NCBI GenBank assembly: GCA_948144175.1
Contig: CANXME010000853.1
Span: forward strand, 744,001 to 808,000
Length of the DNA stretch: 64,000 nucleotides
Source of the DNA: Closterium sp. NIES-65
Taxonomy: Eukaryota > Streptophyta > Zygnematophyceae > Desmidiales > Closteriaceae
Direction: 5' to 3'
Under the pieces are notes generated by a model. That model made no database searches. It was not told where the DNA came from and worked only from the letters and a program-made list of their open reading frames with translations. Within the stretch, counting starts at the first letter, position 1. The number at the start of each line of letters is the position of its first letter. A program made the translations under genes and the position numbers. This document shows, piece by piece, positions 11,331-59,528 of the stretch.

Positions 11331-12572
11331 TGTGAGAGGACGTCCCTGTTATAATATTTTCTCACTATTATATTTTTCCGTTATCCTATTTTCCCTTTTC
11401 TCTGTCAGAATATTATGCTCTAGCCTGTTGTGGGGTGCTCTATAGCGAGTACAACCCTTTTAGGGTTTGTATCCTCATTCTTGCTAGTGCAAACCCTCTT
11501 TTGCCTAACTCTCTCTTGCCTAGCTAGGTAAACCCTAGCTATGGCTCCTCACTATACCTACTATTTTGAGATGCTATCAGAGCAGTGTCGCTCCTGGCCT
11601 GTGGGCCCGCCTGCTTCCGCTGCCCTACTGTCTGTCGCGCGCCCCGTGGCGTGCGATGTACATTTTTTCTTCCCGCCACGCGCTCGGGGCGCGTGGCGGT
11701 TTTCTGCCCGCCATGCGCTCGGGACGCGTGGCGGTTTCCGTCAACCCGCGCGCCCGTCCCCGTCGACCTTCGCGCGGCTCCCCGTCACCCTTCGCGGCGG
11801 CCCCGTCGACCCGCCCGCGGCTCCCCGTCGCCCTTCGCGGCGGCCCCGTCGACCCGCCCGCGGCTCCCCGTCGCCCTTCGCGGCGGCCCCGTCGACCCGC
11901 CCGCGGCTCCCCGTCGACCTTCGTGGCGGCCCCGTCAACCCGCGCGCGGATCCCTGTCGCCCTTCGCGGCGGCCCCGTCGACCCGCGCGCTGCCCCCGGG
12001 GACCTATGCGCTCGTCCCCGTCGACCCACGCGTCGCCCCCCCCCCCCCCTCCCCCCCCCCCCCTCCCCGACACACCTGAGTCTGCTTACCGCACACCTGA
12101 GTTCGCTTCCCGCACACTTGTGCACGATTCGCGCACACCTGAGGTCGCTTACCGCACACTCAGGGTATGGGGGTGACGGGTATGGGGGTGGCGGGTGTGT
12201 GAGACGTCACCTGCTCCTCCTTCTCCTCTGTCTCCCACTGCTGCACCTGCCGCTGAGGGGGGTGGGTGTGTGGGAGTCGACGGAGTGGTGCTAGGGGGTG
12301 GGGTGTGAGTGACCCTAGGGGTGCAGTAGGGGGTGTGTGAAATGGGGGTGGGATAGTTTGGGGAGGTTGAAGGGGGTGGCCGCCGAGACCGTTGCGCCAT
12401 TCGCCCGTGAGCCCGTTGCGCCAGTCGCCCGTGAGCCCGTTGCTCCAGTCGCCCGTGAGTCCGTTGCTCGTCTACCGCTACTTTTAGCCGCGGAGCCAGT
12501 TACTCCAGTAGCCCGTGTGCCAGTTGCTCCAGTTGCCAGTGTGCCAGTTGCTCCAGTTGCCCGTGTGCCAGT

Positions 12573-12914
12573 TGTCAGAGGTCCACTGGTGATCCCCGAT
12601 TGATCCTAGGGAAGGGTTACAGGCTCGTTGTCCTTGGGGGTTATGGGCGCACTGACCCGCTACTTAACAAGCCCTTTTATCCCAATGGTCTAGTGGTTGG
12701 GATTCTGACATGGTATCAGAGCGGTCTCGGGTTCGAATCCCGGTGTATGCACTTCGGGCATCCCAGTGCGGGGGGGTGTCCGAGGTCCACTGGTGATCCC
12801 CGATTGATCCTAGGGAAGGGTTACAGGCTCGTTGTCCTGGGGGGTTATGGGCGCACTGACCCGCTACTTAACAAGCCCTTTTATCCCAATGGTCTAGTGG
12901 TTGGGATTCTGACA
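12573..12914 (+). mobile_element. Miniature LTR element E1 (TRIM/SMART-like), 342 bp
   Basis: Two 138-base LTRs (12573-12710 and 12777-12914) begin TGTC(A/C)GAG and end TTCTGACA. Only 66 bases lie between them: PBS TGGTATCAGAGCGG (12711-12724), a tRNA T-arm-like sequence, and a G tract as polypurine site. Target duplication CCAGT is exact at 12568-12572 and 12915-12919. It is nested in D1. The LTR end plus the internal region has Pol III A-box-like (12686-12696) and B-box (12730-12740) sequences at tRNA spacing. Confidence 0.9.
12686..12740 (+). promoter_or_regulatory. tRNA-like A box and B box in E1
   Basis: TGGTCTAGTGG (12686-12696) fits the A-box pattern and GGTTCGAATCC (12730-12740) the B-box. 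Their starts are 44 bases apart, as positions 8 and 52 of a tRNA. D-arm and T-arm stems can form, and TCTGA/TCAGA closes an anticodon-like 7-base loop. The acceptor ends do not pair, so it is not a normal tRNA gene. Pol III use is an inference. Confidence 0.5.
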
Positions 12915-13740
12915 CCAGTTGCTCCAGTTGCGCCGTGTGCCAGCAGCTTCAGCCGCCGCCCACTACCTCCTCTCCTCTCATAGTCCCTCCTCCTCCACAC
13001 TAGCCCTCTGCGATAGCCTCTAGCTTTGCTCATAATTGTGAACTTTAAACTATTGCTTCTTGAACTTGTGCTCAGAATGTGTGGTGACATTGTGATCCAC
13101 CCTGAGCTTGTACTGCTGATTACACCCCACTTTGGCTATGGGGGTGTGTCAGAATATTATGCTCTAGCCTGTAGTGGGGTGCTCTATAGCGAGTACAACC
13201 CTTTTAGGGTTTGCTATTTGTATCCTCATTCTTGCTAGTGCAAACCCTCTTTTGCCTAACTCTCTCTTGCCTAGCTAGGTAAACCCTAGCTATGGCTCCT
13301 CACTATACCTACTATTTTGAGATTCTCCTCTTTATTTTGGTCTTTATCTCATCTCAATCGGCCTAGTATTCCATTTTCTAGAGGCTTCTATTTATTTCTC
13401 TTATTTCCTACTTTTCCCACCGACATACCTATTATATGGCACCGACAGCACCGACAGTGGTGTATACGGTGTAATATGGGCGTAATCCCAAGTGCCAATA
13501 GCCTTGCGTGCTTGTGCGCACTTGTGATTGTAGTATCGGGAAGGGCGTGTTCCCGAAGGTTCGTTTTATCTCGTTTATCCTTGTATTTTCCGAGTATAAA
13601 AATGCCTTGTATTCAGTTTTAGTGACAAGTTTCGATTGAGAATTTGATCCTGTGACACTTGGTAATCAGAGCCGTTCTCATTCGACGACTCTCGGCTAAG
13701 CAGCGGTCGCGGAACGAAAAACCGCCGGGGGCGACCAATT

Positions 13741-14896: not shown

Positions 14897-15501
14897 TTGC
14901 GGATCGTGCTGGCGAGGAAAAGCAGATCCGAAAGCGTCAGCGCAATCTGGACCGAATCGAAATTGAAGGACAGCATTGGGCGCGAGATTTGGAGAATCAA
15001 GGGCGAAATCGCAAGCCCCTTGACCGAAATTTGTCAGAGGGATTCGCCGAGGAAAAGAAAACCTCCGCGAAAACAGACTCGACCAAGACGGAAACTCTCC
15101 AATTCGACCCCGGAAAAAAAACAGAATTCGTTAAAGTTTTCTTTCAAAGATGCTTTAATGAAGACGGGTAATTTTCGCGGGTCCGGAGCCATAAACAAAT
15201 TCCGGGAAGAACTCCAGAGGAAGCAGACAATTAAAGAAGTGGTACCGGTGCCTACAGAGCTGGGGAAAAAATTAAGGAGTGTGGAAAGGAGTAGACATTT
15301 TCACGGCGTGAACGTCCTCTTCCGGAACCAGCCCAAGACGACACTCCACTCCCCAGGGAAGAAGTCTATGGAGCTGAAGCAGCTGAAGAGGCAGCTAGGA
15401 GTTCAAAAGAAGCTGCGGAAACTCCGAAAGCCCCTCCAGAATGCATCCAGTGGATCGCAGGCGTCGACCGGATCCACCCCCTCAGGGTCAACCTGTACGG
15501 T

Positions 15502-15799
15502 TGTCAGAACATTATAGCTTATGCTTTTGTGTAGGCTGTAGTGGGGTAGCCTATATAAGGTACAAACCAATTAGGGTTAGTACTTGTACCCAACTCTTTC
15601 ATACTGCATTCATTCTCGTTCATTTCTCACATGGTATCAGAGTGGTCTTGGGTTCGAATCCCGGTGTATGCACATGTTGGCCTTTGCCACTGTGCTCAGT
15701 CCTGGGCCTCCCAGTGTGGGGGGCTGTCAGTAGAGCTACACTGTGAGATCCCCGATCGATCCTAGGGGGGGTTACAGGCGCGTTTGCCTGGGGGGTTAT
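15502..15799 (+). mobile_element. Chimeric miniature LTR element H
   Basis: A 130-base LTR of the Copia-A/G type (15502-15631, TGTCAGAAC to TTCTCACA, with TATATAAGG at 15552-15560) is followed by PBS TGGTATCAGAGTGG, the same GGTTCGAATCC T-arm motif as in E, and a short G-rich end. Then, from 15725, an E-type LTR begins (TGTCAGTAG) and is cut at about 15799 where Copia-B starts. Different LTR types at the two ends point to a recombinant or to two elements joined. No target duplication can be seen. Confidence 0.6.
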
Positions 15800-16346
15800 G
15801 GCGACCGACTACTGCAACCAGGCCAGGCGGATTCTCGCCACCATCAGGATGGCCGACGCGCAGTGCTCGACGGCGTCGTACGTCACCAACGTCATGCAGG
15901 GACTGTCGAGCAACTACAACCTCCTGAAGCGGCTGTCAATGGCGCCGAGCACGAGGACGATGCTCAACGAGGACAACTTGACCTCGTACATCCTGCAGGA
16001 CGAGGCGATGCAGGAGGCTGAGCGGTCACAGGAGCTCTTGGCGCAGGCCAACTTCATCGCCCCGATGAAGCAAGGAGGCCGACCGGGTCAGCGTGGACAA
16101 TCTGGTGGCGGTGGTAGCAGTGGCTGGAAGTCGGCCAAGGAGGTCGACAAGAGGAAGTCGACCAAGGACAGCGGTCGAGGAGGAGGAGGTCGAAGTCGGG
16201 AGTGCTGGATCTGCCACAGCCCTGACCACCTCTCCTTCGAGTGTCCCGACCGCAATGACTCTGACGACGACGACAAGGGCGGCCGCGGGAGGTCGAGCAA
16301 TCGTCGTCCTTGTCGAGGAGGAAACCAGCCGCGCAAGGAGAAGTAG
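15800..16346 (+). pseudogene. gag: Copia-B gag, copy B2, 5'-truncated
   Basis: C-terminal part of Copia-B Gag, equal to B3 from 41671. It keeps the end of the UBN2-type gag domain (TDYCNQARRILATI, YVTNVMQGLSSNYN) and the zinc knuckle CWICHSPDHLSFEC. The ATG at 15798 is provided by the fused E-type LTR and is probably accidental. It ends with TAG at 16344, in the same frame as the protease that follows. Confidence 0.85.
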
Positions 16347-23402: not shown

Positions 23403-25369
23403 TGTCAGAATATTATGCTCTAGCCTGTTGTGGGGTGCTCTATAGCGAGTACAACCCTTTTAGGGTTTGTATCCTCATTCTTGCTAGTGCAAACCCTCTT
23501 TTGCCTAACTCTCTCTTGCCTAGCTAGGTAAACCCTAGCTATGGCTCCTCACTATACCTACTATTTTGAGATGCTATCAGAGTAGTGTCGCTCCTGGCCT
23601 GTGGGCCCGCCTGCTTCCGCTGCCCTACTGTCTGTCGCGCGCCCCGTGGCGTGCGATGTACATTTTTTCTTCCCGCCACGCGCTCGGGGCGCGTGGCGGT
23701 TTTCTGCCCGCCATGCGCTCGGGACGCGTGGCGGTTTCCGTCAACCCGCGCGCCCGTCCCCGTCGACCTTCGCGCGGCTCCCCGTCGCCCTTCGCGGCGG
23801 CCCCGTCGACCCGCCCGCGGCTCCCCGTCGCCCTTCGCGGCGGCCCCGTCGACCCGCCCGCGGCTCCCCGTCGCCCTTCGCGGCGGCCCTGTCGACCCGC
23901 CCGCGGCTCCCCGTCGCCCTTCGCGGCGGCCCCGTTGACCCGCCCGCGGCTCCCCGTCGACCTTCGTGGCGGCCCCGTCAACCCGCGCGCGGATCCCTGT
24001 CGCCCTTCGCGGCGGCCCCGTCGACCCGCGCGCTGCCCCCGGGGACCTATGCGCTCGTCCCCGTCGACCCACGCGTCGCCCTCCCCCCCCCCCCCCCCCC
24101 CCCCCCCCTCCCCGACACACCTGAGTCTGCTTACCGCACACCTGAGTTCGCTTCCCGCACACTTGTGCACGATTCGCGCACACCTGAGGTCGCTTACCGC
24201 ACACTCAGGGTATGGGGGTGACGGGTATGGGGGGTGGCGGGTGTGTGAGACGTCACCTGATCCTCCTTCTCCTCTGTCTCCCACTGCTGCAGCTGCCGCT
24301 GAGGGGGGGTGGGTGTGTGGGAGTCGACGGAGTGGTGCTAGGGGGTGGGGTGTGAGTGACCCTAGGGGTGCAGTAGGGGGTGTGTGAAATGGGGGTGGGA
24401 TAGTTTGGGGAGGTTGAAGGGGGTGGCCGCCGAGACCGTTGCGCCATTCGCCCGTGAGCCCGTTGCGCCAGTCGCCCGTGAGCCCGTTGCTCCAGTCGCC
24501 CGTGAGTCCGTTGCTCGTCTACCGCTACTTTTAGCCGCGGAGCCAGTTACTCCAGTAGCCCGTGTGCCAGTTGCTCCAGTTGCCAGTGTGCCAGTTGCTC
24601 CAGTTGCCCGTGTGCCAGTTGTCAGAGGTCCACTGGTGATCCCCGATTGATCCTAGGGAAGGGTTACAGGCTCGTTGTCCTGGGGGGTTATGGGCGCACT
24701 GACCCGCTACTTAACAAGCCCTTTTATCCCAATGGTCTAGTGGTTGGGATTCTGACATGGTATCAGAGCGGTCTCGGGTTCGAATCCCGGTGTATGCACT
24801 TCGGGCATCCCAGTGCGGGGGGGTGTCAGAGGTCCACTGGTGATCCCCGATTGATCCTAGGGAAGGGTTACAGGCTCGTTGTCCTGGGGGGTTATGGGCG
24901 CACTGACCCGCTACTTAACAAGCCCTTTTATCCCAATGGTCTAGTGGTTGGGATTCTGACACAAGTTGCTCCAGTTGCGCCGTGTGCCAGCAGCTTCAGC
25001 CGCCGCCCACTACCTCCTCTCCTCTCATAGTCCCTCCTCCTCCACACTAGCCCTCTGCGATAGCCTCTAGCTTTGCTCATAATTGTGAACTTTAAACTAT
25101 TGCTTCTTGAACTTGTGCTCAGAATGTGTGGTGACATTGTGATCCACCCTGAGCTTGTACTGCTGATTACACCCCACTTTGGCTATGGGGGTGTGTCAGA
25201 ATATTATGCTCTAGCCTGTAGTGGGGTGCTCTATAGCGAGTACAACCCTTTTAGGGTTTGCTATTTGTATCCTCATTCTTGCTAGTGCAAACCCTCTTTT
25301 GCCTAACTCTCTCTTGCCTAGCTAGGTAAACCCTAGCTATGGCTCCTCACTATACCTACTATTTTGAGA
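23403..25369 (+). mobile_element. Non-autonomous LTR element D2
   Basis: LTRs 23403-23571 and 25194-25369, target duplication TTCTC at 23398-23402 and 25370-25374. It has six units of the 43-base minisatellite (five in D1 and D3) and a run of about 26 C near 24083-24108. The PBS position reads TGCTATCAGAGTAG. Confidence 0.88.
24620..24961 (+). mobile_element. Miniature LTR element E2
   Basis: LTRs 24620-24757 and 24824-24961, 66-base interior. Left flank CCAGT, right flank CAAGT: one base has changed since the exact duplication preserved in E1. Confidence 0.9.
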
Positions 25370-25445: not shown

Positions 25446-26517
25446 AGTGCTCTCAGCTCTGCCTTTGGATGAGTCCGTAGAGTCGAGTGGCCCGTACCCA
25501 GAGCTTGTTGGTTGCCTCATGTACCTGATGACCTGCACACGACCTGACCTTGCATACCCTCTTAGCATCTTGGCACGCTATGTTGCTCCTGGGAGACACC
25601 GACCAGAGCACATGGCTGCAGCGAAGAGGGTGTTGCGCTACTTGGAGGGCGGAGTCTAGTGGTCGGAGGGCGGAGTATAGTGGTCCTCACTGGGCACGCG
25701 GACGCTTCTTGGGCTGACGACCAGGCTACTCAGCGGTCGTCGCAGGGTTACACCTTCAGTCTTGGTTCTGGCTCTGTTTCGTGGCGGGCTACTCGCTCGT
25801 CTTCTGTTCTCGGCTCCAGTTGTGAGGCTGAGATCTACGCCGGGGCCATGGCTGCTCAGGAGCTTCGCTGGCTCACCTACCTGCTGACTGACCTTGGAGA
25901 GCCGCCTCGTTCTCCTCCAGTGCTGTACGTAGACAACAAGGCCATGCTGGCCTTGTGTCGAGAGCAGCGCCTGGAGCACAGAACGAAGCACATTGCTCTC
26001 CGCTACTTTCTTGCTCGTGAGCTGCAGCAGCGTGGTCAGTTGCGACTTGCGTACGTGGCCTTTGAGGCCAACACTGCTGATGTTTTCACCAAGGCACTTC
26101 CGCCTTGTGATCATCAGCGCTTCTGCACTCAGCTGGGACTTGTCCCAGTCTTGCCTCACTTGCTCACCTCTTGACCTTACTTGTACTCTTGCATATATAT
26201 ATACCTACTCTTGCTTGTTTAGACTTATATATATATGTCTCCTCTTGCATGTGAACTGGCCTTGTGGCCTTGACCTTGAGCTCAGACTGTGTGGTGACGT
26301 TGTGATCCACCCTGAGCTTGCTTTACTTTGCTTTGCTTGACTGGTCTTGTGACCTCTTGTTCTCCCCCACTTTGCCTATGGGGGTGTGTCAGAACATTAT
26401 AGCTTATGCTTTTGTGTAGGCTATAGTGGGGTATCCCATAAGGGGTACAACCCAATTAGGGTTAGTACTTGTACCCACTTCATTCATAGTTCATTTATTC
26501 GCGTTCACTTCTTCACA
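25446..26517 (+). mobile_element. Copia-A-type 3' fragment I2 with LTR
   Basis: 3' end of a Copia-A relative: end of RT, RNase H, 3' untranslated region with TATATATA runs, polypurine tract (CTATGGGGGTG) and a 131-base LTR (26387-26517, TGTCAGAAC to TTCACA). The LTR is of the G type, also seen in H, rather than the A2 or A3 type. The 5' side is joined directly to the Ty3 LTR remnant. Confidence 0.85.
25447..26174 (+). pseudogene. pol: Copia-A RT end and RNase H, fragment I2
   Basis: Two overlapping frames. The first (to 25659) has YLMTCTRPDLAYPLS, the conserved segment after RT. A deletion of about 30 bases and a 21-base tandem duplication (GGAGGGCGGAGT.TAGTGGTC) then break the frame. The second frame (to 26174) has the RNase H residues: Asp in GHADASW, Glu in SCEAEIY, Asp in YVDNKA and His in RTKHIALRYF, plus the TADVFTKAL end. 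Protein identity to A3 is very high, so decay is recent. It contains the empty target of A3 (TTCAC, 26085-26089). Confidence 0.88.
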
Positions 26518-36500: not shown

Positions 36501-36844
36501 ATGGCCGCAATGTCTGCCAGGCTCAGTCTACCCTCCCGCTCGCGGTTTCTGTCTCTGTTCTGTTGTGTAGCGAAGGGAGCCTCAGTGGTAACTGTCGCCA
36601 CCGTCGCCTCGTTAGCGCTGCTGATGCTCTGGCTGTATCATTTCTCCTCCCGTGTGAGCCCAGATGTGCTGGCGGTTCGCGATTACTTAGACTCCTGTGT
36701 CGGCGTGGGTGTTGCGTATCGTGGCATTCACACAGGCACTTCTTTTTTCCGCGGTATTGCATGCTCCGATGTGGTGAACGCTGCTGCCGTTCGCGGCAAA
36801 GCAGGCTTTGAAAACGGAAACAGAACTCGTTACCAACGCATCAT

Positions 36845-36897
<53 letters not shown>

Positions 36898-38129
36898 GTG
36901 GTTATGACAGCGGCAGCAGCAGCAGCAGCAGCAGCAGCTACATCAAGAGCTCCAAAAAAGGCAGTATGAGGGGGAGGAAAGTGGCAGCTGCCGATCCAGG
37001 ATCATCCAGAATTGTCTCAGATCCAGGCTGGGGGCGTCACAGTGGCGCTACGAGCAGCAGCAATGAGAGAGTGGCAGACGCTGGGGGAAGGGATGGCTGC
37101 CGAGTCACATATGACGCCACAGTAGACCCTCGCGACTTAAAGCCAACGTCAGCTTTCACCTACTCCAACTGCAGCATCGAATGGATCACTTTCTCCACCC
37201 GGTGTGGGAAAGGCGTTCAACGCTTAGCTAAGTTCTGTGAGATGAACGGGATTCAGCTCGCGGTGCTTGGTTTGAATGAGACCTGGCAGGGCCTAGGCGG
37301 TCGGGTGAGATACTATCGAGAGTACCTAAGGACACTGCCAAAAGACCGAATTGTGATTGTAACAGATGCTGATGACGTCCTGCTGCTGCCAAACAGAGAA
37401 CTATGCGGACCAGATTCGCTAATCAAAGCGTTTCTGTCTCTTAACGCTCCTATCGTTTTCGGAGCTGAGATGTTCGCATATCCAACAGGTGATGTCATCC
37501 CCTTCTACCCTCAGAAGCTGAGATCTCCTTTTCCAAACCGACACGTCAACGCAGGGTCCTATGTTGGGTATGCATGGGCTCTCGGCGAAATGATGGATGC
37601 AACATACACGAGTGACTGTATGGAGGATCAGCGGCAATTTGTGGCGGCGTATTTGGCCCAGCCGTTCCTGTTCAACTCCCTCCCACGCATGCCGTACCCT
37701 GACCCAGTAACAGACAGCCACGGAGCAACCAAACCAGCCACCAAAGACTCTGATCCGTCTTTATCCTCATCTGCTACTCCTCTGCCCGGCACGCTACGGT
37801 ATTTCTGCTCTCTTCCTGGTCCGGTGCAGGCCCTGATTCCTCAAAACGTCACCCCGGCAGGACTAGAGGGAGCCAGAAAGGCAGCGCCTCCACCGTTTAT
37901 CAAGCTGGACCACTACAACGCTCTGATAGAGCTGCTGGGAGGGCGGAGGTCGGAACAATATGAGGTGCAAGGGACTGGAGTGGAGATCAAGGTGTATTCC
38001 AAGGTGACGAAGGCGTACCCGTGTATTTTTCACCAGTCGGGGGATAAGACGACGAGTGGGGTGGTGTATGAGATAGTGGGGAATGGGACCTTGGATGGTA
38101 TTGCCTTTGAAGGGATGGATTTAATGTAG
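36501..38129 (+). CDS. Type II membrane glycosyltransferase, PLOD/GT25-like domain (GT1)
   Basis: Uninterrupted 542-residue protein starting at ATG 36501 (a second ATG is three codons later) and ending TAG at 38127. A hydrophobic stretch at residues 26-48 after a basic N-terminus looks like a signal anchor, suggesting Golgi or ER lumen orientation. Residues 116-132 are 17 Gln, followed by a Ser run: a low-complexity stem. The catalytic part (about 200-520) resembles the glycosyltransferase domain of procollagen galactosyl/lysyl-hydroxylase (PLOD) proteins: TDADDVLLL with a DxD-type metal site at Asp289-Asp291, NAGSYVGYAWAL at 350, MEDQRQF with Asp376-Gln377, and HQSGDK at 511. The likely reaction is sugar transfer from a nucleotide sugar to a protein acceptor; donor and acceptor cannot be told from sequence. 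No introns are needed. It is the only clear host gene, with a near-identical second copy at 62631. Confidence 0.82.
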
Positions 38130-39594: not shown

Positions 39595-40759
39595 TGTCAA
39601 CTGGAGTTCTGTGTTGGCCCCGTCCTTGCTTGGGCGGGCCGATGTCGTGGTCGGGTGTGAGGGGAGCAGCCGACCGGCAACAGTGGGCGAGCTGGTTGAC
39701 GAGGAGGTCGACCTGCATTTGGGCCACTGCACGGGCGCCGACTTCAAGGTGGCGCCGACTTCAGGGAGGTCGACCTGGGAGGTCGACCTGCGGAGGACAT
39801 CAACTTGGTGACGTCAACTTGGGGCAGCCGACTTCGGTGGTCGGCTGACAGGACCTGCTGGTCGACTTGCTGGTGGTCGACCTGACCTAGTGGTCGACGA
39901 AGGAGGGGCCGACGTCGACCTCGACTCAGGTCAGGACGCCGAGCGGTTGGGCGTCGAGAAGCTGGGCGTCAACTGCGTGACGCCGACTTCGGTTAGCCGG
40001 CTTGGGAGGTCGGCGGACAACTGCACTGGTCGACGAGGAGCTGGTCGACCAGGAGTGCTGGTCGACGCGGAGCTGGTCGACCAGGAGTGACGTCGACCTG
40101 GAGGAGGTCGACCAAGGGTGTGGTCGACCTGGTGAGGTCGACTGGAGGTGGCCGTCGACTTGGGAGGTCGACGGGCAAGTATGGGAGCTGCTGGTCGACG
40201 TAGTTGCCCGGTCGACCAGGTTACCTGGGTGACGAGGTTCTGCGGAGAAATGCGACGGTCGCCCAGGCGAAGTTGGCGAGCCCGACCTCGATGGTTGTAT
40301 CCCGAGGTCGACATGGCGGATCAGGTGGAGTTGTCAGCACAGTGACGTGCGTTGTGCAGGTGACGAGGCTCAGCCCGCCAATCATCTGCGCGCACCTGCG
40401 AAGCGGGTGCGCTGCTGTTCTGCGTGAGCAACGCTGGCACGCCGTCAAGCTGTGACGTTGGCACGACGTCGACTTTGCACTGCTGGAGTGCGGTCGACCA
40501 AGTCGTGCTGGAACGCGGTCGACCATGCTGCGCTGGCAGTCGACCGACCTGAATGTTTGCTCTGATGTAGTCTTGCCATGCCAACTTCATTGTACCATTG
40601 TTGTCAACTTTCTCTAGTGAAACTCTTGCCAAATTACCTTGTGAACTAGCAAGCAGTGTGTGCACTAGGAAAACGACTAAGGACCAACGAACGCAGAGAT
40701 CACACGAGCACTCGTGCCTAGCCCGTAGTCTAGCTCCCGTTGTAGTAGTTATCTCCGCA
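39595..40759 (+). repeat. Copia-B 5' LTR of B3, GTCGAC-rich
   Basis: Contains about 24 GTCGAC palindromes between 39700 and 40550, where chance would give less than one. The rest is GC-rich, with no clear TATA box. Confidence 0.92.
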
Positions 40760-40777
40760 TGGTGCGGTGAGCGTGGA
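40760..40777 (+). other. Copia-B primer-binding site
   Basis: TGGTGCGGTGAGCGTGGA directly follows the LTR. It begins TGG, as required to pair with a tRNA CCA end, but is not the initiator-Met type used by the other families here. I cannot name the tRNA. Confidence 0.6.
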
Positions 40778-40866
40778 CGGCACACGACTTACCTTTTCAG
40801 TCAGGTTGACGTAGACACCACTTACCTAATTCGTAGTTGCAGGCCGGCAGCTGTGCGGTAGTCACT

Positions 40867-42216
40867 ATGGTAGGAGCCGTAGGTGACGCAGGGGTGGTGG
40901 ACACCCTGGAGGCACGGCTGGAGAACGCGAGGAGAAAGCACGAGGCCAACGAGTATGGCGACTTGCCTTGGGCGGTCGTCGAGGCTGGACTCCGCAGCAT
41001 GTGGGCGACGGAGCACCCTTCTCGACCTGCCTCTCCTCGTCCGGTGAACAACGAAGGCGGCGTCGACGTGGGCGTCAACGCCGGTGGTGGTCAAGTCGGC
41101 AGCAGTGCGGGAGGCACGTCGAGGCAGCGTGGTGTGATTCACGCAGATGAAGTCGGCGGCGTTCAGGCGCGAGGGGTGCAGTCGACGGCGGCTGCAGGCT
41201 CCTCATTGGGCGACGTCGGAGGACGACGAAGCAGATTGTCGCCGATGTCGGCGACCCAGGTGACGGCGGGCGGGATAGCACCAAGCTACGGCTACTTCAA
41301 GTTTGCGTCGGACAGGATCTTGGTCACCCCGCCGCTCGTTGGTCGACAAGACATCCTCACCTGGAAGGAAGCCATCGAGCCCCAGCTGGAGATGGCCGGG
41401 CTGATCAACTTTGCCCGAGGAGCCGTAGTGACGCCGGACGACCCCGACCTGCGTGCGGAGTTTCGCGCCGTGCAGCTGTTGACCTTCATGGTCATCTCGC
41501 GGTGCTGCTCGCCGGGCGTGCAGATCGCGTTGAAGTGGTTTTGGGAGTACCTCGACGCTGGCCACCAGGCGTGGCACTTCATTGAGTCGACCTACCAAGT
41601 TACCGACGACCTGTTCATCTCCCAGCAGGAGGGACAGCTAACGCACCTGCGTATGGGCGACGAGGAGACGGCGACCGACTACTGCAACCAGGCCAGGCGG
41701 ATTCTTGCCACCATCAAGATGGCCGACGCGCAGTGCTCGACGGCGTCGTACGTCACCAACGTCATGCAGGGACTGTCGAGCAACTACAACCTCCTGAAGC
41801 GGCTGTCAATGGCGCCGAGCACGAGGACGATGCTCAACGAGGACAACTTGACCTCGTACATCCTGCAGGACGAGGCGATGCAGGAGGCTGAGCGGTCACA
41901 GGAGCTCTTGGCGCAGGCCAACTTCATCGCCCCGATGAAGCAAGGAGGCCGACCGGGTCAGCGTGGACAATCTGGTGGCGGTGGAAGCAGTGGCTGGAAG
42001 TCGGCCAAGGAGGTCGACAAGAGGAAGTCGACCAAGGACAGCGGTCGAGGAGGAGGAGGTCGAAGTCGGGAGTGCTGGATCTGCCACAGCCCTGACCACC
42101 TCTCCTTCGAGTGTCCCGACCGCAATGACTCTGACGACGACGACAAGGGCGGCCGCGGGAGGTCGAGCAGTCGTCGTCCTTGTCGAGGAGGAAACCAGCC
42201 GCGCAAGAAGAAGTAG
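40867..42216 (+). CDS. gag: Copia-B Gag (B3)
   Basis: 449 residues from ATG 40867; the frame upstream is open only through TTG. It would form the cytoplasmic particle and bind element RNA. An N-terminal charged/Gly region of about 150 residues is followed by a UBN2-type Copia gag domain (about residues 160-360, with WKEAIEPQLEMAGL, AWHFIESTYQV, YVTNVMQGLSSNYNLL). A Gly/Ser/Lys-rich stretch and a zinc knuckle follow: Cys403, Cys406, His411, Cys416 (CX2CX4HX4C). It ends at TAG 42214-42216, and the protease continues in the same frame after this single stop. Either TAG is a read-through signal that sets the Gag to Pol ratio, or it is a lesion; B2 has the same TAG. Confidence 0.85.
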   Translation: MVGAVGDAGVVDTLEARLENARRKHEANEYGDLPWAVVEAGLRSMWATEHPSRPASPRPVNNEGGVDVGVNAGGGQVGSSAGGTSRQRGVIHADEVGGVQARGVQSTAAAGSSLGDVGGRRSRLSPMSATQVTAGGIAPSYGYFKFASDRILVTPPLVGRQDILTWKEAIEPQLEMAGLINFARGAVVTPDDPDLRAEFRAVQLLTFMVISRCCSPGVQIALKWFWEYLDAGHQAWHFIESTYQVTDDLFISQQEGQLTHLRMGDEETATDYCNQARRILATIKMADAQCSTASYVTNVMQGLSSNYNLLKRLSMAPSTRTMLNEDNLTSYILQDEAMQEAERSQELLAQANFIAPMKQGGRPGQRGQSGGGGSSGWKSAKEVDKRKSTKDSGRGGGGRSRECWICHSPDHLSFECPDRNDSDDDDKGGRGRSSSRRPCRGGNQPRKKK

Positions 42217-45200
42217 TCGACCAAGACGTCGACTTCGGCGAAGGACGCCGACTCCTCTGCTGGCGGCAAGACGCGGGACGACAAGATGGCGTCGTGCTCG
42301 CTGGTCGGCGTCGTGGAGCCGACCGTCTCGCTGGCGCCGGAGGCCGGAGAGGACTTCCAGGCGGTGGCGGCAGCCGTGCAGGCGAACCCGGCGGTGGTCC
42401 TGCTCGACAGCGGCTGCTCCCATCACCTGATGGGGACGAAGGAGGTCTTCGTCGACCTGCAGCCGAGCGGCTCAATCAAGCATGTGCGCGGCTTCAATGG
42501 GGCGCTGCAGGACGTCCAGGGCCGTGGCACCGTCGCCCTGCAAGGCGAGGTCGGGAAGCGGGTGCTAATCCCCGACGTGCTGTATGTCCCGGGTGTGTGG
42601 GCGAAGCTGCTGTCGGCCGGCCAGCTGAAGGAGCACGGCGTGAAGCTGTAGGAGGGCGGCAACGGCATGCTGCTTGTCTCGGCGGTTGGGGAGGTGCTCA
42701 GCCGGGCGACGTACTCCAGGCGAGTCCTATGCACCGACCTGCGTCCCTGCACCACGACGTCGACGTCGCCTACGCCGAAGGTCGTGGCCCTGCGGGCGAT
42801 CGTCTCGAAGACGAAGTCGACGCCGGACCGGATGCACGCGAGGCTGGCGCACGTAAGCATGGACACCATTAGAAGCTTGGCGGAGCACGAGGTCGCCATT
42901 GGGCTGGACCTCAAGTCGGCGATGGGCGCCGACTCACCGTGTGTCTCGTGCGTTGGCGGGAAGCTGGCGCGGCACACCTTCCCCGACCAAGGCTCCGACG
43001 CCGACGACGTGCTGGCCGTCGTGCACATCGACCTGTGCGGGCCGTTCGGCGTGGCTGCCAAGGACGGCAGCCTGTACTTCCTACTGCTGAAGGACCGCAA
43101 GACCCGCTTCGTGTGGGTGAGGACGGTCGCCAAGAAGTCGGACGTGCTGCTGGAGTTCCAGAAGTGGCTGGTGTTGGTGGAGAGGCAGACGAAGAAGTCG
43201 GTGCTGATGCTGCGCTCGGACCGAGGAGGGGAGTTCCTCGGGAAGAAGTTCACCGACTTCGTGGACGGACAGGGGATCGTCCACGACCTGACCTGCCCGT
43301 ACACCCCGCAGCAGAACGGCATGGCGGAGAGAGAGATGCGGACGGTGGTGGAGTCGGTGCGGACGATGCTGCTGCACATGGGCGTGCAGCACCACTGGTG
43401 GCACCTCGCTCTGCGGCAGGCCATCTGGGTCCGCAAACGATAGGGGAGGGATTGAAGTCGACGTCGATAGGGGAGGAGCAGGTCGAGGAGCAGCAGCCGA
43501 CCGGGGAGCAGGCAGCAGTGAAGCCGACCACGGAGCAGTCGGCAACCAGACAGTCGGCAGGGTAGCCGACCACAGGGGAGAGGTCAGCGAGGACGTCGAC
43601 CGAGGTGCAGCGGGACGACGAGGGCAGTGAAGATGGTGACGAAGGAGGGGACGCCGAGGTGTCCACCAAGAGTGACGTGGTGGAGGTTCGGCCGGAACCC
43701 CGGAAGTCAGGCCGAGTTCGGAGGCCACCCGACTTCTTCGTCCCCGCTGCCTTCACCACGGTGTACGACGTGGACGACGACGACAACTTGGCGTATGACG
43801 ATGCCGAGGAGGATGAGGAGTTTCCGGAGCTCGACCCTGACATGCTGGCCGACCCAGAGCACCGTTGGGACATCTCGACGATGACGGTGAAGGAGGCGTT
43901 GGCAAGCTGGAAGGGCCCGGTGGTGAAGGCCGCCATGGAGGAGGAGATCCGCAGCCTCATCAACATGGACACGTGGGAGCTAGTCGAACGCCCGCCAGGG
44001 GTGAACGTCATGAAGAACCGGTGGGTGTTGACGACGAAGTACCACATCGACGACACCGTCGAGCGCGAGAAGGCGAGGCTGGTCGTGAAGGGCTTCACGC
44101 AGGTGTACGGCGCCGACTATGACGAGGCGTTCGCGCCGGAGGGCAGCTACGTCACGCTGAGGATCTTCCTCAGCATCGTCGCCGTCCTCAACCTCAACCT
44201 GATGCAGCTCGACATGAAGAACGCCTTCTTGCAGAGCAAGCTCGACCGGGTGCTCTACATGTCCCAGCCGGACTACTTCAACGACGGAACCGGCCGGGTG
44301 TGCAAGCTGCTGAAGAGCCTGTACGGCCTGAAGCAGTCGCCGCTGTTGTGGTACTTGGCGCTCAACGACGTGCTGATCGACGCCGGGTGGAAGAAGAGCC
44401 AGGTCGACGAGGCTCTCTACTTTAAGGTCGGCATGGACGGAGTGGCCTGCTGGGTGCTGGTCTACGTTGACGACCTGCTCGCCGCCAGCAGCAGCACCGA
44501 GATGCTGAAGGAGCTGCTGGAGTCCGCCTTCAAGCTGCGTGAGATCTCGCCGGTGCAGAAGAACCTTGGGCTGGAGATCGTCCGCGACAGGTCGGCGGGG
44601 AAGCTGCAGCTGCACCAGCAGGGCTACGCGGACAAGCTGCGTAGGCGTTTCATCGACGAGGAACAGACCGGGCGCACCCCGAAGACGCCGGTCTCGGTCG
44701 ATGCCTACGCCGAGCTCACCTTCGACGACGAGGAGGCACAGGAGCGACAGGAGGAGGAGTACCGGCAGAAGGTCGGCTCGCTGCAGTTCGCGGCGACGAC
44801 GACAAGGCCAGACCTTGTCTTCGCCTGCAGCAAGCTGGGGAGCGGTCTCACGGTGAGGAGCGACCAGCACTGGCGCGAGGTCGACCGCTGCCTCGCCTAC
44901 CTTGCCAACACGCGTGACACCGCCCTGGAGTTCGGTGGTGGACTTGAGTCGCTGGAGCTGGTCGGCTACGTGGACGCCGACGACGCCGGTGACAAGCAGA
45001 ACAGGACGAGCACGGGCGGCTACGTGTTCGTCTACGGAGGGGCCGCGGTCTCCTGGTCGAGCTAGCGCATCAAGTGCGCGACGTTGTCGTTGACCGGGTC
45101 GGAGTACGTGGCGGCCACGGAAGCCGGAAAGTAGGGACGTGGACTTCGCTTCCTCCTCGCAGAGTTCCAGCAGCTGAATGCTGGGAAGCCAACCGTCCTT

Positions 45201-45464
45201 CGGGTGGACAACAAGTCGGCCATCACAGTCGCCGAGGGCATGGGGTTAACGGGCAACCTCAAGCACATGGAGCGGCGACAGGCCTAGCTGCAGCACATGG
45301 TGAAGCGCGGGAAGTTCTCGCTGAGGTACATCCCGACCACCGAGCAGCCGGCCGACTTCCTGACGAAGGCGCTGCACTATCCAGCCTTCAACCGGTGCTC
45401 CGTCGCTATCGGCCAGGTGCGCTTGGCCGACATGTGCGACGAAGCTGACGAGGTGCAGCAGTAG
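42217..45464 (+). pseudogene. pol: Copia-B pol (B3), multiple TAG codons
   Basis: Protease with catalytic Asp at 42406 (LLDSGCSHH). Integrase: zinc motif HARLAH...CVSC, then HIDLCGP, RSDRGGEF and NGMAERE for the D,D,E triad, encoded about 42830-43440. RT (43566-44560) has LDMKNAF, SLYGLKQSP and YVDD near 44465, and RNase H runs to 45464 (GYVDADDAG, VDNKSAI, ADFLTKAL). In-frame stops are all TAG: 42214, 42649, 43441, 43563, 45063, 45132, 45285 and the terminal 45462. The segment that normally follows the integrase core in Copia (TPYE...RVFGC) is absent and the frame changes at about 43440. Compared with B1 and B2, nine bases (KEL) are missing near 44510. It is not functional under the standard code. 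Confidence 0.88.
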
Positions 45465-45591
45465 GTGCCATGCCCTCTTGCATGGCTGGTGCGGTGGACG
45501 ACGTGCTGGGTGTTGGGTGCACGTCGACGAGCTTTCTCCGAGGAGTACTGCCGTGTGGGCTGGGGGCCCAAGCGTGAACGCGGCAGGGGAG

Positions 45592-46751
45592 TGTCAACGG
45601 GAGTTGTGTGCTGGCCCCGTCCTCGCTTGGGCGGGCCGACGTCGTGGTCGGGTGTGAGGGGAGCAGCCGACGTGCAGCAGTGGGCTAGCTGGTTGACGAG
45701 GAGGTCGACCTGCACTGGGGCCACTGCACGGGCGCCGACTTCAGGGTGGCGCCGACTTCAGGGAGGTCGACCTGGGAGGTCGACCTGCGGAGGACATCAA
45801 CTTGGTGACGTCAACTTGGGGCAGCCGACTTCGGTGGTCGGCTGACAGGACCTGCTGGTCGACTTGCTGGTGGTCGACCTGACCTGGTGGTCGACGGAGG
45901 AGGGGCCGGCGTCGACCTCGACTCAGGACGCCGAGCGGTTGGGCGTCGAGTAGCTGGGCGTCAACTGCGTGACGCTGACTTCGGTTAGCCGGCTTGGGAG
46001 GTCGGCGGACAACTGCACTGGTCGACGAGGAGCTGGTCGACCAGGAGTGCTGGTCGACGCGGAGATGGTCGACCAGGAGTGACGTTGACCTGGAGGAGGT
46101 CGACCGAGGGTGTGGTCGACCTGGTGAGGTCGACTGGAGGTGGCCGTCGACTTGGGAGGTCGACGGGCAAGTATGGGAGCTGCTGGTCGACGTGGTTGCC
46201 CGGTCGACCAGGTTACCTGGGTGACGAGGTTCTGCGGAGGAATGCGATGGTCGCCCAGGCAAAGTTGGCGAGCCCGGCCTCGGTGGTGGTATCCCGAGGT
46301 CGACATGGCGGATCAGGTGGAGTCGTTAGGACAGTGACATGTGTTGTGCAGGTGACGAGGCTCAGCCCGCCAATCATCTGCGCGCACCTGCGAAGCGGGT
46401 GCGCTGCTGTTCTGCGTGAGCAACGCTGGCACGCCGTCAACCTGCGACGTTGGCACGCCATCGAATTTGCACTGCTGGAGTGCGGTCAACCAAGTCGTGC
46501 TGGAACGCGGTCGACCATGCTGCGCTGGCAGTCGACCGACCTGAATGTTTGCTCTGATGTAGTCTTGCCATGCCAACTTCATTGTACCATTGTTGTCTAC
46601 TTTCTCTAGTGAAACTCTTGCCAAATTACCTTGTGAACTATCAAGTAGTGTGTGCACTAGGAAAATGACTTAGGACCAACGAATGCAGAGATCACACGAG
46701 CACCCATGCCTAGCCCGTAGTCTAGCTCCCGTTGTAGTAGTTATCTCCGCA
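45592..46751 (+). repeat. Copia-B 3' LTR of B3
   Basis: 1160 bases preceded by a purine tract (GGCAGGGGAG). It is more similar by eye to the B1 and B2 LTRs than to its own 5' LTR. For example, it shares GAGTAGCTGGG where the 5' LTR has GAGAAGCTGGG. This fits copying of the 3' half of the locus. Confidence 0.9.
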
Positions 46752-49956: not shown

Positions 49957-51212
49957 CCGACACACCTGAGTCTGCTTACCGCACACCTGAGTTCGCTTCC
50001 CGCACACTTGTGCACGATTCGCGCACACCTGAGGTCGCTTACCGCACACTCAGGGTATGGGGGTGACGGGTATGGGGGTGGCGGGTGTGTGAGACGTCAC
50101 CTGCTCCTCCTTCTCCTCTGTCTCCCACTGCTGCACCTGCCGCTGAGGGGGGTGGGTGTGTGGGAGTCGACGGAGTGGTGCTAGGGGGTGGGGTGTGAGT
50201 GACCCTAGGGGTGCAGTAGGGGGTGTGTGAAATGGGGGTGGGATAGTTTGGGGAGGTTGAAGGGGGTGGCCGCCGAGACCGTTGCGCCATTCGCCCGTGA
50301 GCCCGTTGCGCCAGTCGCCCGTGAGCCCGTTGCTCCAGTCGCCCGTGAGTCCGTTGCTCGTCTACCGCTACTTTTAGCCGCGGAGCCAGTTACTCCAGTA
50401 GCCCGTGTGCTAGTTGCTCCAGTTGCCAGTGTGCCAGTTGCTCCAGTTGCCCGTGTGCCAGTTGTCAGAGGTCCACTGGTGATCCCCGATTGATCCTAGG
50501 GAAGGGTTACAGGCTCGTTGTCCTGGGGGGTTATGGGCGCACTGACCCGCTACTTAACAAGCCCTTTTATCCCAATGGTCTAGTGGTTGGGATTCTGACA
50601 TGGTATCAGAGCGGTCTCGGGTTCGAATCCCGGTGTATGCACTTCGGGCATCCCAGTGCGGGGGGGTGTCAGAGGTCCACTGGTGATCCCCGATTGATCC
50701 TAGGGAAGGGTTACAGGCTCGTTGTCCTGGGGGGTTATGGGCGCACTGACCCGCTACTTAACAAGCCCTTTTATCCCAATGGTCTAGTGGTTGGGATTCT
50801 GACACAAGTTGCTCCAGTTGCGCCGTGTGCCAGCAGCTTCAGCCGCCGCCCACTACCTCCTCTCCTCTCATAGTCCCTCCTCCTCCACACTAGCCCTCTG
50901 CGATAGCCTCTAGCTTTGCTCATAATTGTGAACTTTAAACTATTGCTTCTTGAACTTGTGCTCAGAATGTGTGGTGACATTGTGATCCACCCTGAGCTTG
51001 TACTGCTGATTACACCCCACTTTGGCTATGGGGGTGTGTCAGAATATTATGCTCTAGCCTGTAGTGGGGTGCTCTATAGCGAGTACAACCCTTTTAGGGT
51101 TTGCTATTTGTATCCTCATTCTTGCTAGTGCAAACCCTCTTTTGCCTAACTCTCTCTTGCCTAGCTAGGTAAACCCTAGCTATGGCTCCTCACTATACCT
51201 ACTATTTTGAGA
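49273..51212 (+). mobile_element. Non-autonomous LTR element D3
   Basis: LTRs 49273-49441 and 51037-51212, TTCTC at 49268-49272 and 51213-51217. It contains five minisatellite units, a run of 43 C at about 49911-49953, and E3. Confidence 0.88.
50463..50804 (+). mobile_element. Miniature LTR element E3
   Basis: 342 bases with 138-base LTRs, as E1 and E2. Flanks are CCAGT and CAAGT, the same substitution as E2, which groups copies 2 and 3. Confidence 0.9.
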
Positions 51213-51932: not shown

Positions 51933-52299
51933 TGTCAGATTATTATAGCTGATGCATGTTTGTAGGCTATAGTGGGGTAGCACATATGGGGTACAGTTTG
52001 CTAGGGTTGTATTTGTACCCAACTCTGACTTAGTCAATTCATTTTCCTGTTCAGTTAGTTTCACATGGTATAGAGCGAGTCCCTCCTAAGGACCGTTCTT
52101 TGGGCCCACCCACGATTTTTTTCCTGCCCGGAGCGCGCCCTATTCTCCCCGAGGCGCGCTCCCCCTAGTGCGCGTCGAGCTGCCCTTGTGGCGCCCCGAA
52201 AGTCGCGCGCGCGACTCATTTTTTTTTCGCGCGCGCGGCCCAGGCCCCACTTCGCGCGGCCCTTACAGCCGCGCCGCGCCGCCCTCTCGGCTCTGCCGC

Positions 52300-53165
52300 G
52301 CCGCGCCGCCCTCAAGACGGCCGCGCGGCCTCTTCGTCGCTGCAGCAGGCCCCCCCCCGCTGCACCTCTGTCGGCCCCGCAGCCGCCTTACCTGACGGCC
52401 GCCGCCTCACCTGACGGCCCGCCGCCTCGACTTCTGGCCCGCCACCTCACCAGACGGCCCCCCCCGCCTCACCTGACGGCCCACCGTCTCACCTGCTGGC
52501 CCGCCACCTTACGTGACGGCCCCGCCGCCTCACCTGACGGCCCGCCGCCACCTTACCTGACGGCCCCGCCGCCTCACCTGACGGCCCGCCGCCTCACCTA
52601 CTGGCCCGCCACCTGACCTGACGGCCCCGCCGCCTCACCTGACGGCCCGCCGCCTGACCTACTGGCCCGCCACCTCACCTGACGGCCCGCCGCCTCACCC
52701 GCTGGCCCGCCACCTGACCTGACGGCCCCGCCGCCTCACCTGCTGGCCCGCCACCTGACCTGACGGCCCCGCCGCCTCACCTGACGGCTCGCCACCTCGC
52801 CTGCTGGCCCGCCACCTGACGGCTCCGCCGTCCCCTGTCCCGGCCCCGCCGCTGCACCCTGACGGCCCCGCCGTCCCCTGTCCCGGCCCCGCAGCTGCAC
52901 CCTGACGGCCCCGCCGAGCCGCCCAGCAGCAGCCGAGCCGCCCAGCCGCAGCCGAGCCGCCCAGCAGCAGGTGAGCCGCCCAGCAGCAGCCGCGCCGCCC
53001 AGCAGCAGCCGAGCCGCCCTGCCGCAGCCGAGCCGCCCAGCAGCAGCCGAGCCGCCCAGCAGCAGCCGAGCCGCCCAGCAGCAGCCGAGCCGCCCGGTAC
53101 CCGAGCTACCCGAGCCGCCCGAGCCGCCCGAGCCGCCCGAGCCGCCCGACCCAGCCCGAGCTGCC
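52300..53165 (+). repeat. GC-rich minisatellite leader of A3
   Basis: Units near CACCTGACGGCCCGCCGCCT repeat many times, followed by CAGCAGCCGAGCCGCC units. The leader is about 1150 bases from PBS to ATG, longer than in A1 (about 1015) and A2 (about 845). Confidence 0.8.
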
Positions 53166-53217
53166 TGCTGCTGTCCTACCCGACTCTCCTAGCCCGGTGA
53201 GACTTTCAGCTGCTGCC

Positions 53218-54299
53218 ATGGCCACCCCCAATGTTCTTACTTTTGACGCTGAGGGGAGGGCCATTGACTTTGCCGTCTGGATTGAAGACCTGCAGCTGTA
53301 CTTACTGTGTGATGCGATAGATGAGGTCTCTCTCTTTGACTTTGTCTCAGGCGCTGTCCCTGCCCCGCCTGCTGATGCTGACTCTGCTGCTCGCTCCAAG
53401 TGGGCGACCCGCGATGCTGCTGCACGTCTTGCTGTGCGTCGCCACCTCCCTTCCTCTGAGCGTGCCCACTTTAGTCAGTGCAAGACCGCTCAGGCCTTGT
53501 ACGACGCTGTAGTTGCACGCTACTCCTCCCCTTCCTCCGCTACCCTTAGCCGCCTCATGCTACCGTTTCTCTTCCCTGACCTCGCTTCCTTTCCCACTGT
53601 TGCTGACCTAGTTACCCACCTCCGCGCTAGTGACACCCGCTACCGTGCTGCCCTTCCTGCTGAGTTCCGCGCTGCGAACCCTCCTCCCATGTACATCACT
53701 CTCTACTTTCTCGTCACCCGTCTCCCTGAGTCCCTTCGTGTCGTTAGGGACCAGTTTCTCTCTGTCTGTCCCACCACTCTCACTGTCGACCTCCTTGAGG
53801 AGTCCCTGCTAGCGGCTGAGAAGAGTATTGTCGCTGTAGGGGCCTCTCGGGGTGACCCTCGCACCCCCATCTTTGAGGGGTGTGGTCCTTCCCCCCTGCT
53901 GCCCTCTGTCGCCTCTGCCGCTGCGGCCGACCTCGCTGGTTTTGAGTCGGTCGGCGCGGCGTCTGCCCCCAGCGGCAGACGCCGCTCTGGCAAGGGCAAG
54001 GGGGGCAAGGGGGCGGGTGGAGCTAGAGGGGGCGGTGGAGGAGGCGGTGGGGGTGGAGGGGGGAGTGGGAGTGGCGGTGGGGGTGGTGGCGGGAGTGGAG
54101 GTACTAGTGGCGGCGGTGGAGGCGGAGGTGGCGGCGGAGGTGGTAGCGGAGGAGGCGGTGGGAGCGGTGGGAGCGACGGTCCTAGTGGGGGAGGTGGCGG
54201 TGGAGACGGGGGTGGCGGTGGAGGCGGGGGTGGCGGTGGAGGCGGGGGTCGGAGTGGCTCGTCCCAGCGGAGCAGCTCTGGGGGTGGTCAGCGCCAGCA

Positions 54300-54335
<36 letters not shown>

Positions 54336-59181: not shown

Positions 59182-59528
59182 CTTCACTTGTACTTTGTCA
59201 TATATATACCTGCTCCTGCTTGTCTAGTTTTATATATATGTCTGTACTCCTGCATGTGAACTGGCCTCTGGCCCTGCTCTTGTGCTCGGACTGTGTGGTG
59301 ACTTTGTGATCCACCCTGAGCTTGCTTTGCTTTGCTTTGCTTGACTGGTCTTGTGACCCCTTGTTCTCCCCCACTTTGCCTATGGGGGTGTGTCAGATTA
59401 TTATAGCTGATGCATGTTTGTAGGCTATAGTGGGGTAGCACATATGGGGTACAGTTTGCTAGGGTTGTATTTGTACCCAACTCTGACTTAGTCAATTCAT
59501 TTTCCTGTTCAGTTAGTTTCACATTCAC

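Follow-up and report, generated by a model that had tools for sequence, protein, structure and literature searches.

A minimal LTR retrotransposon of Closterium sp. NIES-65 with A and B boxes at tRNA spacing on the two sides of its LTR/PBS border, a probable split Pol III promoter

LTR elements normally carry a promoter in both of their LTRs. E1, an element of only 342 bp at 12573-12914 of the analysed stretch of Closterium sp. NIES-65 contig CANXME010000853.1 (64,000 nucleotides in all, here called the window, whose numbering is used throughout), raises the question of how so short a unit could transcribe itself. A sequence-only reading had described it as a real LTR element with tRNA-like promoter geometry, its A and B boxes lying on either side of the border between LTR and primer binding site (PBS). 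Our analysis suggests that E1 is probably a TRIM mobilised by copia elements, with a tRNA-derived, tRNA-Pro-like type-2 Pol III promoter that the border between LTR and PBS divides in two. E1 is composed of the following features.

12568-12572, no strand: left TSD CCAGT, an exact 5-bp match to the right copy
12573-12710, + strand: 5' LTR, TGTCAGAG...TTCTGACA, 138 bp
12668-12670, + strand: CAA motif with a putative Pol III start at A 12669 (role after a part of PMC11700998)
12675-12678, + strand: TTTT of the 5' LTR, 7-10 nt from that start, which the polymerase would read past
12679-12685, + strand: 5' arm of hairpin H1, ATCCCAA
12686-12696, + strand: A box TGGTCTAGTGG, within the H1 loop, the same as the A box of six host tRNA-Pro genes
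12697-12703, + strand: 3' arm of hairpin H1, TTGGGAT
12711-12723, + strand: PBS TGGTATCAGAGCG, complementary to initiator-type tRNA-Met 3' ends
12730-12740, + strand: B box GGTTCGAATCC, interior
12770-12776, + strand: G tract ahead of the 3' LTR, a PPT by position
12777-12914, + strand: 3' LTR, with an A box copy at 12890-12900 and without B box
12879-12882, + strand: TTTT of the 3' LTR, putative Pol III terminator
12915-12919, no strand: right TSD CCAGT

The two 138-bp LTRs are 99% alike and enclose an interior of 66 bp (12711-12776), which opens with TGGTATCAGAGCG and closes with seven G. The 13 bases of the PBS are complementary to the 3' end plus CCA in 14 of 22 host sequences that show the initiator tRNA-Met pattern. 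These 22 match the pattern of plant initiator tRNA-Met and are candidate genes by pattern only. With TG...CA ends on its LTRs, a PBS, a G tract at the position of a PPT, an exact 5-bp TSD and noncoding sequence, E1 is a real, minimal LTR retrotransposon of the TRIM type, as the sequence-only reading had held, and all coordinates check. The promoter geometry was likewise found as described: the A box starts at 12686 and the B box at 12730, 44 bases apart at tRNA spacing, in a module that extends across the LTR/PBS border. On the + strand of the window, a strict A box was present only in the six LTRs of E1 and its two copies E2 and E3, and a strict B box, searched on both strands, only in these three elements and at 15651. 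Among 5000 dinucleotide shuffles of the LTR, 14 contained a strict A box and 78 a loose A box located 31-60 bases ahead of the B box.

The two further copies in the window are:

24620-24961, + strand: E2, duplicate of the E1 insertion, TSD CCAGT/CAAGT
50463-50804, + strand: E3, duplicate of the E1 insertion, TSD CCAGT/CAAGT

E1, E2 and E3 have common flanks because all three sit inside 8-10 kb repeats that are ~99% alike, and independent insertions were therefore rejected in favour of one insertion. It is present three times in the window and makes up five of the 40 best genome copies. A DNA search of the 874-Mb assembly (2400 contigs) gave 959 candidates; the best 40 of them were scored, are all 97-100% alike and represent 32 independent sites by flank comparison. 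An exact 5-bp TSD was found in 36 of these 40 (L026 by eye), with one mismatch in the other four. A second query, window 15630-15850, gave 2204 candidates, and the best 40 scored revealed a longer class of 375-377 bp with LTRs of 141-142 bp. A complete element was recognized by script in 22 of 30 loci of this class, all 22 with an exact TSD, in 20 flank groups. Most family members thus fall into one of two length classes, of 342-346 bp and of 375-377 bp.

Independently of the boxes, a 17-base LTR-end/PBS pattern that includes neither of them gave 3483 exact matches in the genome (1724 + 1759) and none for the reversed control. From the 100 matches listed of these 3483, 71 junctions (30 loci and 40 regions) were taken, namely 71 of the first 72 places in contig order (C62:1467667 was skipped), a sample that is not random. 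By script flags amended by eye, the 71 junctions consist of ~58 family members, five joints with other elements and eight other LTR elements taken for copia. Of nine flagged by the script, L079, L119, L132 and L136 are ordinary copies with mutated interior, and L084, L097, L106, L121 and L108 are the joints. Two of the ~58 members, L125 and perhaps L072, have a partial interior followed by a copia-type LTR. A TSD was assigned automatically in 29 of 52 elements of this sample, where the script often over-extended the LTR edges. At L084/L085 and L117 two LTR/PBS junctions lie ~235 bp apart, like the tandem LTR-interior-LTR-interior-LTR forms of Cassandra.

An A box exactly at -25 was found in 52 of the 71 sites and a strict B box in 47; 39 sites have both and 11 have neither. 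The latter are L116, L125, L135 and the eight other LTR elements found at this PBS, which are assigned to copia by LTR and PBS alone and, in contrast to E1, lack both boxes in the vicinity of the PBS. That other genomic copies keep the boxes, on which the sequence-only reading had staked its promoter, is borne out by 97 distinct junctions, drawn from all loci by filtering on letters of the LTR end that lie outside the boxes, and after removal of L075, L108, L112 and L131 by hand. The A box is present in 90 of them, the B box in 78 and both in 74, with a spacing of 44 in 52 and of 47 in 22; the strict B box is missing in 19 and the strict A box in seven. In L128 and L129, which are one insertion, and in L140 the A box near the PBS is one base shorter.

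Mean pairwise non-CpG difference among the 97 junctions is 0.017 for the A box, 0.034 for the H1 arms and 0.060 for the B box, compared with 0.114 for U3 and 0.125 for the far interior. The most variable position of the B box (0.22) is the free N of GGTTCGANTCC. In the 54 of these 97 that come from the PBS-anchored sample, the corresponding values are 0.021 for the A box, 0.045 and 0.049 for the H1 arms, 0.133 for U3 and 0.151 for the far interior, and the B box (0.085) equals the 12 bases after it (0.085). The PBS and the LTR tip are conserved by sampling, as the sample required the PBS and partly the LTR end. The A box is strongly conserved, far beyond U3, and the B box only moderately; the A box does not form a lone peak, the LTR being conserved from base 95 onward. 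Between the length classes, the longer class is 99.1% identical to E2 in the tRNA-like part, 95.1% in LTR bases 76-103, 87.5% in U3 and 78.8% in the far interior, with gaps uncounted; the extra interior bases of the longer class start directly after the tRNA-like part and were treated as gaps. This comparison is consistent with constraint on the tRNA-like module, and recombination between the classes may also account for the likeness.

The two LTR ends differ in 35 of 103 elements by script reading, with at least L102 misread, and some variants may therefore be mosaics. In L094, L095, L110, L128, L129 and L124 only one of the two LTRs carries a hairpin variant that pairs (CCAG/CTGG or CTAG/CTAG): the 5' LTR in five and the 3' LTR in one, where L128 and L129 again count as one insertion. 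The two LTRs of one element are expected to be identical at insertion, and these one-LTR variants thus suggest mosaics or gene conversion.

The module resembles tRNA-Pro in primary sequence. Of six host tRNA-Pro genes, L149 scored best: positions 12685-12743 align to it with a single gap and 42 of 58 bases identical, a result reached by none of 1000 shuffles, and the A box is identical at 11 of 11 bases to that of all six genes. Alignment scores were 10-17 for the six tRNA-Pro genes, 10 for tRNA-Glu (best shuffle 8) and 5 for tRNA-Ile, these three being the host isotypes compared; two of the six tRNA-Pro genes (L148 and L152) did not score above the best of 1000 shuffles. A tRNA-Glu origin was rejected on this comparison of three isotypes, and pattern searches for host tRNA-Glu-like genes found nothing. 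The host tRNA genes are of plant type, since the best 40 matches each to land-plant tRNA-Glu and tRNA-Pro are 91-98% identical.

As a tRNA fold, the module fared differently. ARAGORN found no tRNA. The tRNA covariance model of Rfam, a check proposed with the sequence-only reading, gave 16.4 bits for E1 and 18.9 for L107, the only one reported of six family loci, against a gathering score of 29 and 56.6 bits for a host tRNA-Pro control. The acceptor stem of the module is unpaired. The tRNA likeness is one of primary sequence and not of tRNA structure. Where a tRNA has its anticodon arm, the module has the LTR end and the PBS (TCTGACA / TGGTATCAGA). These are able to pair, as the sequence-only reading had noted, but both sides are fixed by other needs of the element, and the hairpin gains no support as a tRNA fold. 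The D and T stems claimed in the same reading were not sustained as RNA structure either. In 62 distinct sequences the T-stem pair 64-78 is broken in 19, the strict B box being kept in 16 of these 19, and the D arm is without covariation; a conserved T arm and D arm were thus rejected. The module folds with an energy close to that of its shuffles (z -0.74 and -0.18), with z of -1.98 for 12669-12798 and +0.86 for 15600-15690 in the hybrid described next.

Two features of the window connect the family to copia elements.

15501-15801, + strand: hybrid with a copia-type LTR at 15501-15631, fused at the PBS to a longer-class interior and partial LTR, then copia gag at ~15800
51933-59523, + strand: recent Ty1/copia element with two identical 133-bp LTRs and TSD TTCAC

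The idea that the element was built from a copia 5' UTR (window 15631-15801) was rejected, as this stretch belongs to the longer class of the TRIM family inside the hybrid. The window copy of the hybrid (L041) and L042, L043 and L049 all have a copia-type LTR joined to the TRIM interior, and they represent one event because their upstream flank is common. In this group the partial TRIM LTR breaks off into copia coding sequence where the two have short words in common. Further joints with copia-type LTRs were found in L058, L084, L097, L106 and L121. The other LTR extends up to the PBS in L058, L084, L106 and the L041 group; the final LTR bases of L097, and perhaps of L121, already belong to the TRIM. 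L058 and L121 follow the order other LTR, TRIM interior, TRIM LTR, other PBS and interior, and L108 has a TRIM LTR ahead of a foreign interior. The LTR of L058 shares 95% identity with the LTR of the copia element at 51933-59523, the LTRs of the L041 group are 85-88% identical to 26387-26517, and that of L121 is 83% identical to 11401-11571; the LTRs of L084, L097 and L106 show weak or no match to those three window LTRs.

The copia element at 51933-59523 is a recent insertion with an uninterrupted ORF of 1994 aa (53197-59181), in which integrase and RVT_2 domains were recognized; gag_2 matches it at 25 bits, below its cut-off of 27. Ty1/copia elements of the same genome have the same or nearly the same PBS as the TRIM, LTRs starting with TGTCAG and a 5-bp TSD (one copy checked), and are joined with it at the LTR/PBS border; they differ in being coding and having their own LTRs. 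The copia LTRs fused to TRIM interior at the PBS point to reverse transcription in common, and such joints would be expected if both RNAs were reverse-transcribed in the same particle. Together with the 5-bp TSD and the common PBS, they suggest that the TRIM is mobilised by Ty1/copia. The window also contains another copia type at 39595-46751, with LTR-like repeats of ~1165 bp (39595-40759 and 45592-46751), and a likely host gene at 36501-38129, a 542-aa ORF with a PLOD-type glycosyltransferase domain (PF25342).

In the proposed model, TFIIIC would bind the A box of the 5' LTR and the B box of the interior, and Pol III would start near the CAA at 12668-12670, cross the interior and U3, and stop at the TTTT of the 3' LTR, giving an RNA of 214 nt. 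The two ends of this RNA would share AAGCCCTTTT, a 10-nt R ready for strand transfer. Reverse transcription would be primed by tRNA-iMet at the PBS, and copia RT and integrase would perform reverse transcription and integration. Plant tRNA genes usually start at CAA triplets within 10 bases upstream, according to a part of PMC11700998. The A of the CAA in E1 is at -10, which places the putative start 10 bases ahead of tRNA-like position 1, and CAAG is present in 85 of the 97 distinct copies and absent in 12. There is exactly one TTTT per LTR in E1, and TTTT occurs at the matching place of the 5' LTR in 90 of the 97; a run of at least four T lies within 25 bases downstream in six of eight host tRNA genes examined. 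The first TTTT, so close to the putative start, counts against the model unless the polymerase passes it. Neither TATA[AT]A nor AATAAA was found in E1. We put forward more tentatively, and with some doubt, that only the 5' LTR completes the promoter, because the B box lies in the interior, whereas the 3' LTR and solo LTRs would keep just the A box and TTTT. Each new insertion would then rebuild the promoter, since the LTR/PBS junction made by reverse transcription sits at the place of the tRNA anticodon arm.

The end of the LTR has a second candidate function, which bears on a different reading of the boxes. Hairpin H1 (7 bp, ATCCCAA/TTGGGAT) encloses the A box and is paired in 98.4% of cells in the 62 distinct junctions, an alignment from which five of 67 had been removed beforehand (L075, L108, L112, L131 and the copia-type L084 junction). 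In a three-helix structure, both-side changes were counted in eight cells versus 2.1 in shuffles (none of 500 as high), all of them in H1: six at one pair and one each at two others, including one in L135, whose row is seemingly misaligned. The whole-structure covariation score and the paired percentage are above all 500 shuffles; H1 is thus better supported as RNA structure than the tRNA-like arms, and is a genuine candidate function of the LTR end. E1 could accordingly be seen as a conventional TRIM that copia mobilises and Pol II transcribes, from a weak U3 promoter or by host-gene read-through, whose boxes are nothing other than a U5 hairpin and a post-PBS hairpin. The pairing and both-side changes of H1 agree with this, as does the modest conservation of the B box; in L074, L075 and L127, which are other LTR elements, the PBS is immediately followed by a short inverted repeat when read by eye (e.g. 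CCTAGGTAAGCCACCTAGG), and the authors of SMART consider either a TATA motif or host-gene transcription possible in a part of PMC3281118. However, post-PBS sequences of other LTR elements match the B box in none of eight cases, the B box is kept in 16 of the 19 sequences with a broken T-stem pair, and the H1 covariation amounts to few events, with three covarying pairs (reached by 74 of 500 shuffles) and 11 pair types (reached by 268 of 500), neither unusual. The missing TATA[AT]A and AATAAA, the A-B spacing of tRNA genes and the lengthwise alignment of the module to tRNA-Pro also speak against a Pol II element with incidental hairpins, which we regard as rather unlikely.

Two other origins of the boxes deserve still less weight. 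The B box could have come from the primer, if reverse transcription ran on beyond the PBS and into the tRNA-iMet T arm, the reverse complement of which is similar to a B box, with later recruitment of the A box. The 3' end found most often among the host initiator-type sequences, when reverse-complemented, extends the PBS and includes GGTTTCGATCC. Compared with a copy of this kind, E1 has about seven extra bases between PBS and B box, and the stretch from PBS to B box fits tRNA-Pro in sense orientation, which makes a primer origin very improbable; it would in any case be silent on function and compatible with Pol III use. The least probable reading is that of a defunct relic, where the boxes descend from a SINE-like ancestor and are out of use. 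Damage to the B box in 19 of the 97 junctions and its modest conservation would fit, but decay of dead copies is expected under any model, and the module is the best conserved part between the amplified length classes whereas U3 and interior diverge.

The split tRNA-like Pol III promoter can be compared to published systems as these are described in parts of the cited papers. Published LTR elements already include one kind, Helenus (PMC10886601), that has Pol III boxes of tRNA-like type, and E1 is therefore less unusual than the sequence-only reading had claimed, although the split module does set it apart. Helenus elements are TRIMs whose LTR contains a tRNA-like sequence; Kojima 2024 defined them together with the term TRIMp3. 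They resemble E1 in being small non-autonomous LTR elements with tRNA-type A and B boxes, with a 5-bp TSD in fungi and plants and with PBS and PPT between the LTRs; both of the latter are seen in E1. Their length ranges from 311 to 1263 bp; fungal Helenus elements have the PBS in common with copia, and in one family the interior too. One plant family is known in that source, from Selaginella, with an LTR of 120 and an interior of 85. The difference is in the module. Helenus carries the tRNA-like sequence in each LTR, and having both boxes in the LTR is what defines it; in E1 the A box is in the LTR, the B box at 12730 is interior and the 3' LTR has the A box only. The anticodon-arm position, moreover, is built from LTR end plus PBS in E1, a comparison made to Helenus-1_SMo by its description only. 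By sequence, E1 would count as a TRIMp3, with A and B boxes at tRNA spacing and similarity to tRNA-Pro.

Cassandra is likewise a TRIM with Pol III promoter and terminator motifs, a TGGTATCAGAGC PBS and tandem arrays (parts of PMC7215508 and PMC10853983), but its promoter is of 5S rRNA origin and lies within each LTR, and the element is 565-860 bp long (length from a part of PMC10886601). Rfam gave no 5S rRNA match at gathering score in the window, nor up to E 10 in 12560-12930, where the only matches up to that value are to tRNA and two plastid models. No match to the Retrozyme hammerhead ribozyme was found at gathering score in the window. SMART element FRetro129 is also very small (292 bp), with a 5-bp TSD, TGT...ACA ends, and a PBS and part of the interior in common with an autonomous element whose LTRs are dissimilar; in contrast to E1, its LTR has a TATAAAA motif, and the main text of PMC3281118, as far as it is drawn on here, is without the words tRNA and polymerase III. 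A promoter split across the LTR/PBS border was not found in the titles and abstract openings searched, a scope outside which most subscription journals fall.

If the model is true, E1 would represent a different architecture among the proposed Pol III-driven TRIMs, beside Cassandra, Helenus and Ajax. The copia hybrids point to likely helper elements; for Cassandra, PMC10886601 states that there is no indication of such helpers. A split promoter would explain how an element of 342 bp transcribes itself, and would solve the problem posed by two LTRs: being complete only at the 5' LTR, it would let two identical repeats act separately, one as start and the other as stop.
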